A DNA stretch of 64,000 bases. Source: Actinomycetota bacterium (GTDB lineage: Bacteria > Actinomycetota > Acidimicrobiia > Acidimicrobiales > AC-14). The stretch spans positions 34,145 through 98,144 of the forward strand of contig JBFMCT010000001.1 of assembly GCA_040754375.1 (NCBI GenBank), in the 5' to 3' direction. The notes beneath the pieces were generated by a model. It was not told the DNA's origin and did no database searches. It was given only the letters and a program-made list of their open reading frames with translations. Below are positions 22,938 to 28,087 of the stretch, piece by piece (the stretch's first letter is position 1; every line of letters begins with the position of its first letter). Position numbers and translations under genes: made by a program.

Positions 22938-24317
22938 TCAGGGCGTGGTCGTGGCCCGGGCCCCGACCACGGTCAGGTCGTCGTCACGCCGCTCGTGGTT
23001 GGCGCACGCGCCCACGATGTGGCCGCACAGGGCTTCGAGCCCCAGGGGACCGGTGAGCGCGGCGTCGAGCAGCGAGGCCAGGCCCCGGGCCCGCGAGCGG
23101 TTCGGGCCGGTGACCAGCCCGTCGGTGTAAGCCAGCAGGGTCGCCCCCGGCCCCAGCTGGCCGGACACCTCCCGGCGGTGGCCGGCCCCGGGCGCGCCCA
23201 CGGGCGCGGTCAGTTGCTCGTGGAGGAACCGGCCGCCGTGCTCGTCGACGATCAGCGGGGGGCACATGCCGGCCGAGCACAGGCGGAGCTCGCCCGTGTC
23301 GGGCTGCACGACCATGTACACCAAGGCCGCGCCCTCTCCCCGGCCTGTGGCCGCCACGAAGCGGTCGAGGCAGCTCACCAGGCGGGCCGGGAACCGGCCC
23401 TCGATGACTACGTAGGCCGCCACCGCTACCCGCAGGTCGCTCTTGAGGGCGGCCGCCCCCACCCCGCACCCGGGGGCGTCGCCCACCACGATGCCCACGG
23501 CCCCGTGGTCGAGGGGGAACACGTCCCACCAGTCGCCGCCCCCGTCGAGGCCGATGGCCCACGGTCGCGAGCGCCCCACGACCTCGATCCCCTCGGGCCC
23601 GTCGGCCATCGGGCCCGGGCCCCGGCCCCTCTCGTGGGCCTGGGCGGCGCGGCGGCGCCCGGCGTAGTCGACCAGGGCGGCCAGGGCGGGCGAAGGCTCG
23701 GGTGGTCCCTCGTCAGGCGGGGCGGCCTCGGGAGGGGGCACCTCCTCGGCGAGCTCCTGGTCGCAGGCGCCCGCGTCACCGAGCTCCTCGCGCACGAGGG
23801 TGAGCACGGTGTCGAGGGAGCAGCCGACCTCCTCGCTGAACCCGGTGCCGAAGGAGCAGTCGGCCGGTTCGACCTCGATGAGGACGGTGTCAGCCGGCAG
23901 GGCGCCCCAGTGGCCCAGCACGGCCAGGGTGTGGTCGAGGTCACCGGCCCCGGCGATGGACTCGGCCAGGGCTTCGGCAACGCCCTCGGCCACCTCGGCC
24001 GGACCGGTCGTGGCGGGCGCCGGGTGGCCCAGGCGGCGGCACCGTACCGACCCGGGCACGCCCCCTCGGGCCGCCGCGCCCACCAGCACCAGCTTGGGGG
24101 GCTGGAGCTCGTCGACGCGGTGGAGGGCGAGGTGGGCGGCGTAGGGGAGGTCCTCGACGACCACCCCCGGGGGCCAAGGGAACGAGCTGAGGTAACGAAC
24201 GGCCTGGCGGCCGAAGTCGAGGTCCCGCCGGGCCCTGACCCCGAAGCCGGCCACCAGCGCCCGGCAGGATGCGACCTGGGGCCCGGCGGCAGCCGGGCCC
24301 CAGCCCAAGATGGTCAC
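22938..24317 (-). CDS. Hydrogenase maturation protease-like domain fused to SpoIIE/PP2C phosphatase
   Basis: A 459-residue fusion. Residues about 17-180 resemble [NiFe]-hydrogenase maturation endopeptidases (M52, HyaD/HupD), which trim the C-terminus of the large subunit. The start LVAGFGVRARRDLDFG corresponds to the family LVLGxGNxxxxDDGxG, and candidate nickel-sensing residues are D34, D56 and H129. A Pro/Glu-rich linker follows (about 185-210). Residues about 240-455 are a SpoIIE-type PP2C phosphatase with metal-binding acids in DGGGDWWD (D258, D262), VVGDAPGCGVG (D280), AYTDGL and RRDDDLTVV. It begins 7 bases after the hydrogenase large-subunit gene, so the two are almost surely cotranscribed. 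The GTG start is at 24317. The protease assignment is by motif and context. The phosphatase is clear. The target phosphoprotein is unknown. Confidence 0.78.
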   Translation of the reverse strand: MTILGWGPAAAGPQVASCRALVAGFGVRARRDLDFGRQAVRYLSSFPWPPGVVVEDLPYAAHLALHRVDELQPPKLVLVGAAARGGVPGSVRCRRLGHPAPATTGPAEVAEGVAEALAESIAGAGDLDHTLAVLGHWGALPADTVLIEVEPADCSFGTGFSEEVGCSLDTVLTLVREELGDAGACDQELAEEVPPPEAAPPDEGPPEPSPALAALVDYAGRRRAAQAHERGRGPGPMADGPEGIEVVGRSRPWAIGLDGGGDWWDVFPLDHGAVGIVVGDAPGCGVGAAALKSDLRVAVAAYVVIEGRFPARLVSCLDRFVAATGRGEGAALVYMVVQPDTGELRLCSAGMCPPLIVDEHGGRFLHEQLTAPVGAPGAGHRREVSGQLGPGATLLAYTDGLVTGPNRSRARGLASLLDAALTGPLGLEALCGHIVGACANHERRDDDLTVVGARATTTP

Positions 24318-24324
24318 GTCCGGC

Positions 24325-26205
24325 CTACTCGAACGTGCAGCCGCAGGAGTTGACCTCCCGCACGATCACGCCCTTGCCGGTGTCCATGTGGGTCGTGCAG
24401 GGCATGCACGGGTTGAGGCTGCGCACGGCCCGGAGCACGTCGATCCCCTTGATCTGGTCCTCGGGGACCGACTCCAGCAGGGGCGTGCCCACCACGCACT
24501 CCTCGTAGGGGCCGAGCTGGCCGAAGGCGTCGGTGGGCGAGGCGTTGAGGGTGGACGGGGTGGTGATCTGGTAGTTGACCAGCTTGCCCTTGTCCATCTC
24601 GATGTGGTGGACGAGAAAGCCCCGGGCCGCCTCCCAGAAACCGACCCCGATGCGGTGGTCCTTGGGGATCTTGAACGGGGTGTGCACCCTGGTCTCACCG
24701 GCCCGCCAGTACTCGAACGCCTTCAACAGGCAGTTCATGGCGATGGCCGAGGTCATGGCCACCACGTAGGCCCGTCCCCGGTTGCGCTCGAGGGCGTTGA
24801 GGGTGCGGGGCACCGACCAGAACAGCTCGGTCTCGGGCAGGGCGTGGCGGGGGAGCAGCATCTTCACCCCGTCGCCGGTCGCTTCGTAGAAGGGGTTCTC
24901 GGGCACCTTCTGGGCAAGGGCAGTGGCCCACAGCTGGCCGTAGGACCCTGTCTCGATCGACTTGCGGTCCCAGCGGGGGGCCGTGTCCCACGTGTAGCGC
25001 TCCCGGAAGTTGGTGGCCGTGGGCTTGGGGATGGTGGTCTTGTTCCACGGGTGGTAAGGCGACAGGGGGTTACCCAGGGGGTCGGTCTTGAACTTCTGGG
25101 GCCCGGTCTTGGTCCAGTCCTCGTAGAACGAGTGCTCGACGAACTCCTCGTAGCCCATGTTGATGTCGGTCAGGTTGGTGGTGACCAGCTTGCCGTCGAT
25201 GATCATCGAGGGCGTCGACCACCGGGAGTTGCCCCAGGTGTCGAGGTTGGCGTAGGTGGCGTCGTAGACCTTGGAGTTGTCGTAGATGCCGGTCTGGGCG
25301 ATGTTGACCGAGCGGGCGCCGACCTGCTCGTACTCGGGGTTGGCCTCCAGGAAGAAGTCGCAGATGTCGTCCCAGATGCGGGGGATGACCTTGGCGAAGT
25401 CGATGATCTTGCCCAGCTGGCTGTAGTACTCGTTGAAGCTCGACGTGGTGATGGTGGTGGACACCCCACCGGGGACCAGCGTCGAGGGGTGGGGGAACTT
25501 GCCGTACATGAGCATGCACATGATGCGCCCCACCCGGGTCCACTCGAGGGCCTCGAGGTAGATCTTGCCGGTCAGGGGGTTCATGGCGTCCATGATGTCT
25601 TTGATGGTCGTGTAGCCGTGGATGTCGGCGTTGGGGGCCAGGGTCTTCTCGGCCCGGGTGACCAGCTCGGGGTTGGTCACCGACACGATGGCGGTGGAGT
25701 AGTCCGGCCCGGCCAGCAGGCCCAGGTGGAGGGGCCGGTCGTAGAACATCTCCGCGCACTCGCCCAGGTTGCGGACCTCGACGCCCAGCGGCGGGGCACA
25801 GATGCCGAAGGTCTGCTCCAGGCCGAGAGCCGAGACCGAGGCGTGCACGCCACCGCACACCCCGCACGCCCGTGACGAGATGTCGATGGCGTCGCGGGGG
25901 TCACGGCCCTGCAGGATGATCTCGTAGCCCCGGAAGAGCATGGCCCGGGAGTGGCACTCCACGGCCTTGCGGTTCTCGAGGTCGAGCACGGTGTGGATGG
26001 CGAGGGCGCCGGCCACCCGGGTCATGGGGTCGATCGACCACTCACGCAGCCGGGGCGGGGCCGCCAACTGGGCGCCGGGGCCCGAACGCCGGCGCACGTA
26101 CCCCTTGCGCTGCCCGCCCGTCACGGCGTATGGCTCGGCCAGGCCTTCACGCAGGTGAGCCTTGCCAGTGGCATCGAACTCGATGGGAAGGTTCTTGAAG
26201 CACAT
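24325..26205 (-). CDS. [NiFe]-hydrogenase large subunit, group 1h-like
   Basis: A 626-residue hydrogenase catalytic subunit. The L1 motif RACGVCGGVH (112-121) and the L2 motif NPCMPCTTH (598-606) provide the four nickel-binding cysteines C114, C117, C600 and C603. The residue before the L2 cysteines is Asn, not the usual Asp. The 20 residues after H606 form the peptide normally removed by a maturation protease, and end unusually in NSCGCTFE. Overall sequence (LFRG..ILQGRDPRDA, NPLSPYHPWNK, NPCMPCTTH) recalls actinobacterial high-affinity uptake hydrogenases of group 1h. The ATG at 26205 follows GAGGGG at about 9 bases. No small subunit, Hyp or electron-transfer gene is in the window, although such subunits normally precede the large one. 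It is divergent from the regulator at 26279. Confidence 0.9.
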   Translation of the reverse strand: MCFKNLPIEFDATGKAHLREGLAEPYAVTGGQRKGYVRRRSGPGAQLAAPPRLREWSIDPMTRVAGALAIHTVLDLENRKAVECHSRAMLFRGYEIILQGRDPRDAIDISSRACGVCGGVHASVSALGLEQTFGICAPPLGVEVRNLGECAEMFYDRPLHLGLLAGPDYSTAIVSVTNPELVTRAEKTLAPNADIHGYTTIKDIMDAMNPLTGKIYLEALEWTRVGRIMCMLMYGKFPHPSTLVPGGVSTTITTSSFNEYYSQLGKIIDFAKVIPRIWDDICDFFLEANPEYEQVGARSVNIAQTGIYDNSKVYDATYANLDTWGNSRWSTPSMIIDGKLVTTNLTDINMGYEEFVEHSFYEDWTKTGPQKFKTDPLGNPLSPYHPWNKTTIPKPTATNFRERYTWDTAPRWDRKSIETGSYGQLWATALAQKVPENPFYEATGDGVKMLLPRHALPETELFWSVPRTLNALERNRGRAYVVAMTSAIAMNCLLKAFEYWRAGETRVHTPFKIPKDHRIGVGFWEAARGFLVHHIEMDKGKLVNYQITTPSTLNASPTDAFGQLGPYEECVVGTPLLESVPEDQIKGIDVLRAVRSLNPCMPCTTHMDTGKGVIVREVNSCGCTFE

Positions 26206-26264
26206 GTAGGCGCCCCTCTTCGGTCGGTTGCCCTGCAACATCGCATCTAAGTGACAAGAACGCC

Positions 26265-26270
26265 TAGTGT
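26265..26270 (+). promoter_or_regulatory. Putative -10 element (TAGTGT) for the hydrogenase-locus regulator
   Basis: TAGTGT lies 8 bases before ATG 26279, again suggesting a leaderless transcript. A near-palindrome GTTAGCAATGCTTAAC (26272-26287) covers the start codon and could be an autoregulatory site for the encoded helix-turn-helix protein. Both are pattern-based. Confidence 0.35.
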
Positions 26271-26278
26271 TGTTAGCA

Positions 26279-27421
26279 ATGCTTAACGACGGTGAGCGCC
26301 TGACGAGCGGGGTGGAGGACCTCGACCTGCTGCTCGACGGGCTCATCCTGGGCGACAACGTGGTCTGGGTGGGCGACGACGAAGACGTCGTCCGCCGGCT
26401 GGAGGACGCCCTGCTGGCCGAGTCGGTGCGGCGGGGCCAGCCGTGCTTCTACGTGGCGTCGGGGCTGGTCAACGATGCCCTCAAGCGCCGGCTGGGCCCG
26501 GGGGTGGTGGTGCTCGATGCCGGCGGGGGCGGTCCCTACGGCGACCCCGGGGTGCTGGCCACGGCCGTCATCGAGGGTTCCCGGGGTTCGCCGCCCGGGT
26601 GCGTGGTCGTCGACAACCTGGGGTCGTTCGCCCGGCGCTGGGGCCCCGACCGGGCAGTGGCCTTCTTCAGCCGGGTGTGCCCCCGCTTGTTCGACATCGG
26701 GGCACTGGCCTACTGGTGGGCCCCCAAGCGGGAGCTGACCCGATCGTCGCTCGAACGCATCACCCAGGTGACCCAGTGCGTGCTCGAGGTGTCCGGAGAT
26801 CACCTGCGGGTCATCAAGGCCGAGGGCCGCCCGCCCGGCGCCCAGGGCAGCCTCCAGCGGCTGCGGGTGGTCGACGGGGCCGTCACCCTGGAGGACGAGA
26901 TGGGCCTCGGGCGCCTGGGCCGGGGCCTCGAACGGTTACGCCGCGAGCGCAACCTGACCCAGAGCGACCTGGCCCGCTTCGGCCGGGTCAGCCCCAGCGC
27001 CATCAGCCAGGCCGAGGCCGGCAAGCGGGGCCTGTCCCTCGACACCCTGCTGCTGCTGTCCGACCGCCTGGGGGTCAGCCTCGACGAGCTGCTGTCGGCC
27101 TCGGCCGAGCCCGACTACGTGCTGGCCCGCCGCCCCCGGGCCTCGGGCAGCGTCCAGAAGGCCCTGCTCGACGACCCCAAGGCGGGCTTGCGGGCCTACC
27201 TCGTGCGCCTGGGCCCGTGGGAATCGGCTGCCCCCGAGATCCGCCACAAGGGCGAGGAACTGGTGCTCGTGGCCTCGGGCCTGGTGCAGGTCTCGATCGG
27301 TTCTGACACGCCCGTCATGCGGGCGGGCGACGCCGCCCTGGCCACCCGCACGGCCGTCTCGGGCTGGCGCAACCTCACCAACGACCCCGCCCTGCTCTTC
27401 TGGGTCCTGCGCGACGGCTGA
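26279..27421 (+). CDS. KaiC-like / XRE helix-turn-helix / cupin regulator
   Basis: A 380-residue three-part protein. Residues 1-200 look like a RecA/KaiC-type domain (SGVEDLDLLLDGLILGDNVVWV, VVVDNLGSFARRWG), but the P-loop is replaced by GDDEDVV, so ATP hydrolysis is unlikely. Residues about 215-275 are an XRE helix-turn-helix (LERLRRERNLTQSDLARFGRVSPSAISQAEAG). Residues about 300-380 are a small cupin (RHKGEELVLVASGLVQVSIG) that could bind a ligand. It is probably a transcription factor for the divergent hydrogenase genes, an inference from position. ATG 26279 is preferred because a TAGTGT box lies 8 bases upstream. GTG 26267 would add 4 residues but overlap that box. Confidence 0.78.
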   Translation: MLNDGERLTSGVEDLDLLLDGLILGDNVVWVGDDEDVVRRLEDALLAESVRRGQPCFYVASGLVNDALKRRLGPGVVVLDAGGGGPYGDPGVLATAVIEGSRGSPPGCVVVDNLGSFARRWGPDRAVAFFSRVCPRLFDIGALAYWWAPKRELTRSSLERITQVTQCVLEVSGDHLRVIKAEGRPPGAQGSLQRLRVVDGAVTLEDEMGLGRLGRGLERLRRERNLTQSDLARFGRVSPSAISQAEAGKRGLSLDTLLLLSDRLGVSLDELLSASAEPDYVLARRPRASGSVQKALLDDPKAGLRAYLVRLGPWESAAPEIRHKGEELVLVASGLVQVSIGSDTPVMRAGDAALATRTAVSGWRNLTNDPALLFWVLRDG

Positions 27422-27444: not shown

Positions 27445-27843
27445 TCAAACGCGGATGACCGACAGGCCGGGGACGCCGTCGTAGTCGTCGTCCTGGCTCA
27501 CCACCGGGATCCCCTCGGTGATGGCGGTGGCTGCGATCCACGAGTCGTTGAGCGGCATCCGCCGGCCGGCGTCGCGCAACGACAACCGGAGCGCGGCCCA
27601 CGTCTCGGCCACTTCACGGGTTATCGGCAAGGGATCGAGGGCCTCGGCCCAGCGCAAGGTCTGCAGCCGTTGAGCGCGAGCGTCGCCTTCGGCGGCGAGC
27701 ACGCCGAGCGAGAGCTCCCCGACGGTGACGACCGAGACCACTACTCGCTCGGGTGGTGCGCCGGTGATCGATCGATCCTGCTCCTGAGCGATGAACAGCG
27801 ACGTGTCCGCCAGCGCGAGGGCCGGCCGGTGCTCACCCGCCAT
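27445..27843 (-). CDS. PIN-domain toxin, VapC-like
   Basis: A 132-residue PIN-domain ribonuclease. The acidic active-site set is visible: D13 (LADTSLF), E43 (VGELSLGV), D100 (LNDSWIAATA) and D118-D120 (VSQDDDY). VapC toxins cut tRNA or rRNA and block translation unless held by their antitoxin. It overlaps the end of the upstream antitoxin gene by 11 bases, the usual coupled arrangement. Length and motif order are normal, so it is probably functional. The natural target is unknown. Confidence 0.92.
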   Translation of the reverse strand: MAGEHRPALALADTSLFIAQEQDRSITGAPPERVVVSVVTVGELSLGVLAAEGDARAQRLQTLRWAEALDPLPITREVAETWAALRLSLRDAGRRMPLNDSWIAATAITEGIPVVSQDDDYDGVPGLSVIRV

Positions 27844-28087
27844 CGGGATCGTCGGTCATGTCGCCGACGAGCTCGCGGAGCTGGCGGGCCAGGCCGGCAT
27901 CGGCGCGCGCCTTCTCCAGCCCCCGCTCGAAATCGTCCCAGGCGATGGACCGGGGCCGGGCCGGGAGGGGCGAGAGCTCGGCCACCGGCCGGCCGCTCAC
28001 GGTCACCCGAAGGCGCTCGCCGCCCTCGACCCGACGCAGAACGGCGCTCACGTCGTTGCGCAGGTCGCGGGCAGGTATGTCGGCCAC
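27833..28087 (-). CDS. Phd/YefM-family antitoxin, VapB-like
   Basis: An 84-residue antitoxin. The N-terminus IPARDLRNDVSAVLRRVEGGERLRVTVSGRPVAEL is the Phd/YefM DNA-binding fold. The C-terminal acidic and helical part (WDDFERGLEKARADAG) should wrap the PIN toxin. GTG at 28087 is preceded at 6 bases by TACGCT, suggesting a leaderless transcript. A perfect 18-bp palindrome covers the promoter (28096-28113), so the toxin-antitoxin complex probably represses its own operon. The pair may stabilise this region or respond to stress. Confidence 0.9.
   Translation of the reverse strand: MADIPARDLRNDVSAVLRRVEGGERLRVTVSGRPVAELSPLPARPRSIAWDDFERGLEKARADAGLARQLRELVGDMTDDPDGG

Follow-up and report, generated by a model that had tools for sequence, protein, structure and literature searches.

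A divergently arranged pair of genes encoding a [NiFe]-hydrogenase large subunit (LSU) and a regulator (REG), often accompanied by a gene for a fusion protein with a PP2C half, is a conserved cassette that coexists with an operon encoding a small subunit (SSU) and an LSU of the same clade. We read the locus as the source of a conditionally expressed alternative LSU, a partner for the operon's small subunit in the organism's own uptake [NiFe]-hydrogenase, and consider the chances of this reading to be evenly balanced. The cassette lies in a window of 64,000 nucleotides (the whole stretch of DNA analysed; contig JBFMCT010000001.1, positions 34,145 to 98,144) from the 3.5-Mb genome of a soil/groundwater-type actinobacterium (Table 1). 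Its position in the interior of a 221-kb contig and its recovery in independent metagenome-assembled genomes (MAGs) rule out an assembly chimera.

Table 1. Features of the cassette (positions are those of the window)
Feature	Position	Strand	Basis or remark
Fusion protein, 459 aa, HybD/HycI-fold half and RsbU/SpoIIE PP2C half	22938..24317	-	TIGR00072, PF07228; AF2 model
PP2C (RsbU/SpoIIE) domain of fusion	22941..23624	-	GGDWWD, GDAPGCG, YTDG and RDDD intact in window copy, not in all homologues
HybD-fold domain of fusion	23766..24266	-	Stand-alone homologue lacks the three HybD-type Ni-ligand positions
[NiFe]-hydrogenase LSU, 626 aa, paralogue of operon LSU	24325..26205	-	PF00374, 2.1e-63
LSU L2 motif NPCMPCTTH (C600, C603)	24388..24414	-	
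LSU L1 motif RACGVCGGVH (C114, C117)	25843..25872	-	
LSU/REG divergent promoter region	26206..26278		Strand not applicable
Candidate REG operator TTAGCAATGCTTA	26273..26285		11-base motif in 8/8 REG-LSU gaps; one other 13-base site in the genome
REG, KaiC-like domain without Walker A, XRE HTH and cupin	26267..27421	+	
REG XRE HTH	26927..27091	+	PF01381, 1.8e-14
REG Cupin_2 domain	27200..27406	+	PF07883, 1.9e-8

The LSU stop codon is separated from the start of the fusion by 7 bp, and because of this spacing the two genes are probably carried on one transcript. The divergent LSU and REG genes are spaced by about 60-70 bp from start to start, with both GTG 26267 and ATG 26279 possible as the REG start; a sigma-70 promoter scan of the LSU/REG intergenic region gave no match. 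Immediately 3' of REG (27445-28087, minus strand) is a PIN-domain/antitoxin-like pair that looks VapBC-like by eye only.

All four nickel cysteines noticed in the preliminary description are present in the LSU, in the two motifs listed in Table 1, and the PF00374 match is above the cut-off. By analogy with known [NiFe] large subunits, C-terminal cleavage presumably occurs after His606. The label "group 1h-like" was too loose: the LSU does adjoin group 1h, but it sits in a separate sister clade, with 42-44% identity to group 1h references and to the genome's own group 1h-like copy (contig C21) as against 68-91% within the clade. Identity across the order is 68-80%; the window LSU is 91% identical to the operon LSU on contig C5 and 77-80% identical to those of other genera. 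The best solved relative is a group 1h HhyL, HofG of C. necator (PDB 5aa5; E 2e-152, nearly full-length alignment), whose L1 and L2 cysteines are identical to those of the window LSU. Apart from its low overall identity, the window LSU differs from group 1h in its N-terminus (MCFKNLPIEF), its CMPCTTH motif and its CGC tail, and the organism has a separate group 1h operon as well.

The clade stands next to group 1h and is probably of the group 1l type, which it resembles in reported taxonomic spread. Group 1l (HylSL) has been described from desert and Antarctic soil actinobacteria and others, spanning Actinobacteriota, Chloroflexota, Bacteroidota, Proteobacteria and Deinococcota (PMC9561532, PMC7677003, PMC10305171), and the operon members of the present clade come mostly from actinobacterial MAGs, plus one Chloroflexi MAG. 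The group 1l papers found differ in containing no orphan LSU cassette.

The LSU was originally described as an orphan. This is true of the locus, where no SSU, hyp or electron-transfer gene adjoins the LSU in the window, and the missing small-subunit gene sets it apart from a complete uptake hydrogenase locus. It is not true of the genome. A PF01058 search had suggested a genome without a small subunit; this was wrong, as C29 and C64, when queried with the clade's own SSU, each proved to carry an N-terminal SSU fragment at a contig end, the two being identical where they overlap. A PF00374 search found, besides the separate group 1h-like pair (SSU and LSU) on C21, two further window-type LSU copies, one cut off where C5 begins and the other where C63 ends. 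The C5 copy is followed by genes for PROT1 (HybD-like), a NifU-like protein, a DUF protein and HupD, and in about 40 MAGs the clade LSU sits in a normal SSU-LSU-PROT1-NifU-DUF-HupD operon. A matching small subunit elsewhere and relatives with an ordinary operon are what the preliminary description had named as counting against its own proposal of a sensor, and both have largely been found; the SSU fragments and the operon argue for an alternative subunit. Near-identical SSU-LSU repeats are probably where the assembly broke. Near the C29 fragment are hypC- and hypD-like genes (L115:3177-4708), with a CooC-like ATPase gene and PadR-like regulator genes between.

The gene set recurs in other genomes. 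REG lies directly beside an LSU in at least six other MAGs (G004, G006, G008 (twice), G111, LC3_4 and 0707_bin12), often with the fusion, which is present in G004, G008 and LC3_4, broken in G006 and absent from the G008:C58 and G111:C12 loci. The REG-LSU arrangement with its palindrome (see below) spans several genera and at least two families.

The window and operon LSUs have remained almost the same protein, and their DNA identity is mosaic: successive segments of the window gene are 100, 95, 79, 80, 88, 95, 97 and 100% identical to the C5 copy. Such a within-genome mosaic points to gene conversion. In the LSU tree, the window copy groups with C5 (100/100) and G111:C12 with C90 (100/98), and a single clade of REG-linked LSUs is rejected (AU p=1.3e-5), which rules out these LSUs as an old separate subfamily. 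The fused PROT1 domains, in contrast, form one clade (100/99), as do the LSU-linked REGs with moderate support (83/87). The pattern of tree and identity is most simply read as an old cassette with an LSU overwritten again and again by another copy, whether that of the operon or a different one; it would look no different if the LSU had been replaced independently on repeated occasions. This discordance and the mosaic both favor the alternative-subunit reading.

Constraint on the orphan LSUs is also unrelaxed, which again favors an alternative subunit. All full-length REG-linked LSUs have 626 aa, no stop codons or frameshifts were found in REG-linked LSUs, and dN/dS values of 0.12-0.22 indicate purifying selection (the codon-based comparison leaves out the pair YX2b35/YB1_3, which is out of register). 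Breaks at operon-invariant sites mostly number 1-5 of about 230 and are no more frequent in orphan LSUs than in operon LSUs; the window LSU has 7/235 and its operon copy 7/107. With constraint like that of operon LSUs, the orphan LSUs give no sign of lost contact with a small subunit.

As first described, REG combines a divergent KaiC-like domain with an XRE (HTH_3) domain and a Cupin_2 domain. The KaiC fold is present, with GDNVVWVGDDEDV where a Walker A motif would read GxxxxGK[ST]. The folds and the HTH-cupin order recall KaiC/MEDS-type degenerate RecA domains and PuuR-type XRE-cupin regulators, but REG has all of these domains in one chain, lacks the Walker A lysine, and has an LSU gene or gdhA as its neighbor. 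The palindromic motif TWAGCNNYGCT occurs in 8/8 REG-LSU gaps, with 1-2 copies per gap; because it was derived from the gaps themselves this count is descriptive, and independent testing comes from the LSU-less genomes and a whole-genome scan. In 586 kb of scanned loci, nearly all other matches fall immediately upstream of REG in LSU-less genomes, the rest being one upstream of gdhA (G128) and one that is unexplained (G052). The window organism's genome has just two sites of the 13-base form, one of them in the REG-LSU gap (a control pattern gave one match per strand), and the palindrome is absent from the operon and solo LSUs examined, a distribution that also favors conditional use of an alternative subunit. 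In several LSU-less genomes REG adjoins the glutamate dehydrogenase gene (gdhA). The palindrome is therefore probably the REG operator, and REG most likely regulates both itself and the LSU promoter. REG homologues (41-46%) at L099-L105, in genomes without a clade LSU, belong to an unstudied regulator family; several lie beside gdhA and a TraR/DksA-like gene, and some have the same palindrome upstream.

The fusion was described as a maturation protease joined to a phosphatase, and both folds are indeed there, although "maturation protease" can stand here for the fold and not for an activity, as the nickel-ligand positions of that half are gone. The profile matches are TIGR00072 (7e-9, below the cut-off) and PF07228 (2e-30), and the AF2 model matches HybD (1cfz) over residues 18-184 with Z 17.0 and the RsbU domain of Rv1364c (3ke6) over residues 232-458 with Z 25.8. 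HybD/HycI endopeptidases (1cfz, 5ttx, 5zby) bind nickel through Glu/Asp, Asp and His; alignment to 5ttx places Leu, Gly and Gly of the stand-alone PROT1 there, and the fused domains, aligned to the stand-alone proteins, lack the ligands at the same positions. A separate HupD in the operon retains Asp, Asp and His. Close to the lost positions, RDLD is invariant and DLDH nearly so, and the protease-like half may therefore hold some other metal site. The PP2C half of the window copy has the fold and the acidic metal-site motifs, and differs from RsbU/Rv1364c-type phosphatases in having a protease-like fold as its input domain, not a PAS or response-regulator domain.

Under the alternative-subunit reading, a metabolic signal would lead REG to repress or activate the cassette through the palindrome. 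Maturation of the LSU would fall to the Hyp proteins of the genome and the operon's true HupD-type endopeptidase, after which the LSU would pair with small subunit expressed from the operon. In the fusion, the protease-like half would be a diverged copy of the protein encoded 3' of the LSU in the operon, and could bind the LSU and couple its assembly state to PP2C partner-switching output. In this scheme, we infer the LSU-SSU pairing, the operator binding and the PP2C output. Several points weigh against it: the SSU is not encoded alongside the LSU, the adjoining regulators would suit a sensor too, the fusion is missing from two cassettes and broken in a third, the organism's own SSU-LSU core is unassembled across its repeats, and gene conversion can be neutral and is no proof of a shared partner.

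The preliminary description favored a sensor or a regulatory paralogue. A paralogue it is, in a recurring and locally regulated set apart from the operon, but the reasons given for a sensor are not supported. Asn598, in place of Asp before the L2 cysteines, is found in the genome's own operon copy, and the NSCGC tail is not odd because it is invariant or nearly so in the operon members of the clade; odd residues are ruled out as marks of a sensor, since operon copies have them too, and LSU constraint is unshifted. An H2 or redox sensor is unlikely. It would have a matured LSU, unpaired with a small subunit, bind the HybD-like half and thereby control the PP2C, with REG setting the level and a partner-switching sigma-factor cascade as output, and it deserves attention because an RsbU-type phosphatase is fused here to a fold associated with LSUs. 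The conserved cassette, the single origin of the fusions, the lack of a linked SSU and the intact acidic motifs of the window PP2C all fit it. However, some cassettes have no fusion, three homologues have Asn or Lys for the acidic residue of the second PP2C motif, L132 has TAG instead of TDG, and the relatives of REG adjoin gdhA rather than hydrogenase genes. We consider improbable the form in which an LSU without an FeS subunit senses H2 or assembly state and gates the PP2C through a catalytically dead maturation-protease fold, with a degenerate-KaiC regulator setting the level. The known group 2b sensors (HupUV/HoxBC with HoxJ) likewise place a hydrogenase subunit close to signalling proteins, but they are SSU-LSU pairs with a histidine kinase; the window LSU is of the group 1 type, and its locus has a PP2C fusion and an XRE regulator with no SSU or kinase gene, placing it outside group 2b.

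It is doubtful that the cassette LSU is simply one of a set of role-less duplicates, scattered in the genome and homogenized by gene conversion, that happened to land beside REG. Copy positions do vary, and solo LSUs without partner genes exist: three in G004 (L045:17464-19341, L047:7383-9260 and L048:7478-9355, full-length with no hydrogenase gene or REG alongside) and one each in G111 and nzgw85. Against this, REG, LSU and palindrome have stayed together across genera and families, and the REG-linked LSUs are intact and under purifying selection. Clade LSUs outnumber SSUs in some genomes of the order, with counts blurred by contig ends.

Orphan small subunits that have no LSU in their vicinity also occur in G018, G074 and G111 (L120:6209-7411, L198:7138-8364 and L197:7602-8789). 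They are 64-67% identical to the clade SSU (the SSU comparison leaves out row OP_G008, which was read in the wrong frame), retain all the conserved cysteines, and lie at the same conserved site, flanked by a divergent PAS-GGDEF-EAL gene on one side and miaB on the other; G074 and G111 have solo LSUs as well. An ORF in G111 (L200:7552-8172) joins a PAS-like start to an SSU fragment and may be a pseudogene or a chimera.

A new reaction carried out by the LSU on its own or as a homodimer (storing H2, buffering or serving the Hyp proteins as a chaperone decoy, for example) would fit the lack of a linked SSU and the retention of the four nickel cysteines and C-terminal tail, but is very unlikely, given residue constraints equal to those of SSU-bound LSUs and the fact that we know of no [NiFe] large subunit that is active without an FeS subunit.

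The component families of the cassette are already known. A literature search limited to open-licence papers, and hence weak evidence, found no paper on the cassette itself and nothing relevant on hydrogenases with orphan LSUs, gene conversion or protease-SpoIIE fusions. Bacteria that oxidize atmospheric H2 are abundant in soils, and little is known about how their enzymes are tuned. If an FeS-less LSU did prove to be a sensor, it would be a new kind of hydrogenase-based signalling. If the alternative-subunit reading is true, a cassette supplying an extra catalytic subunit under a private regulator would amount to subunit swapping in a [NiFe]-hydrogenase, with gene conversion appearing to keep the cassette LSU exchangeable for that of the operon. 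The cassette is also a warning that counting large-subunit genes, as is commonly done to mark H2 oxidizers, gives too many enzymes in these lineages.
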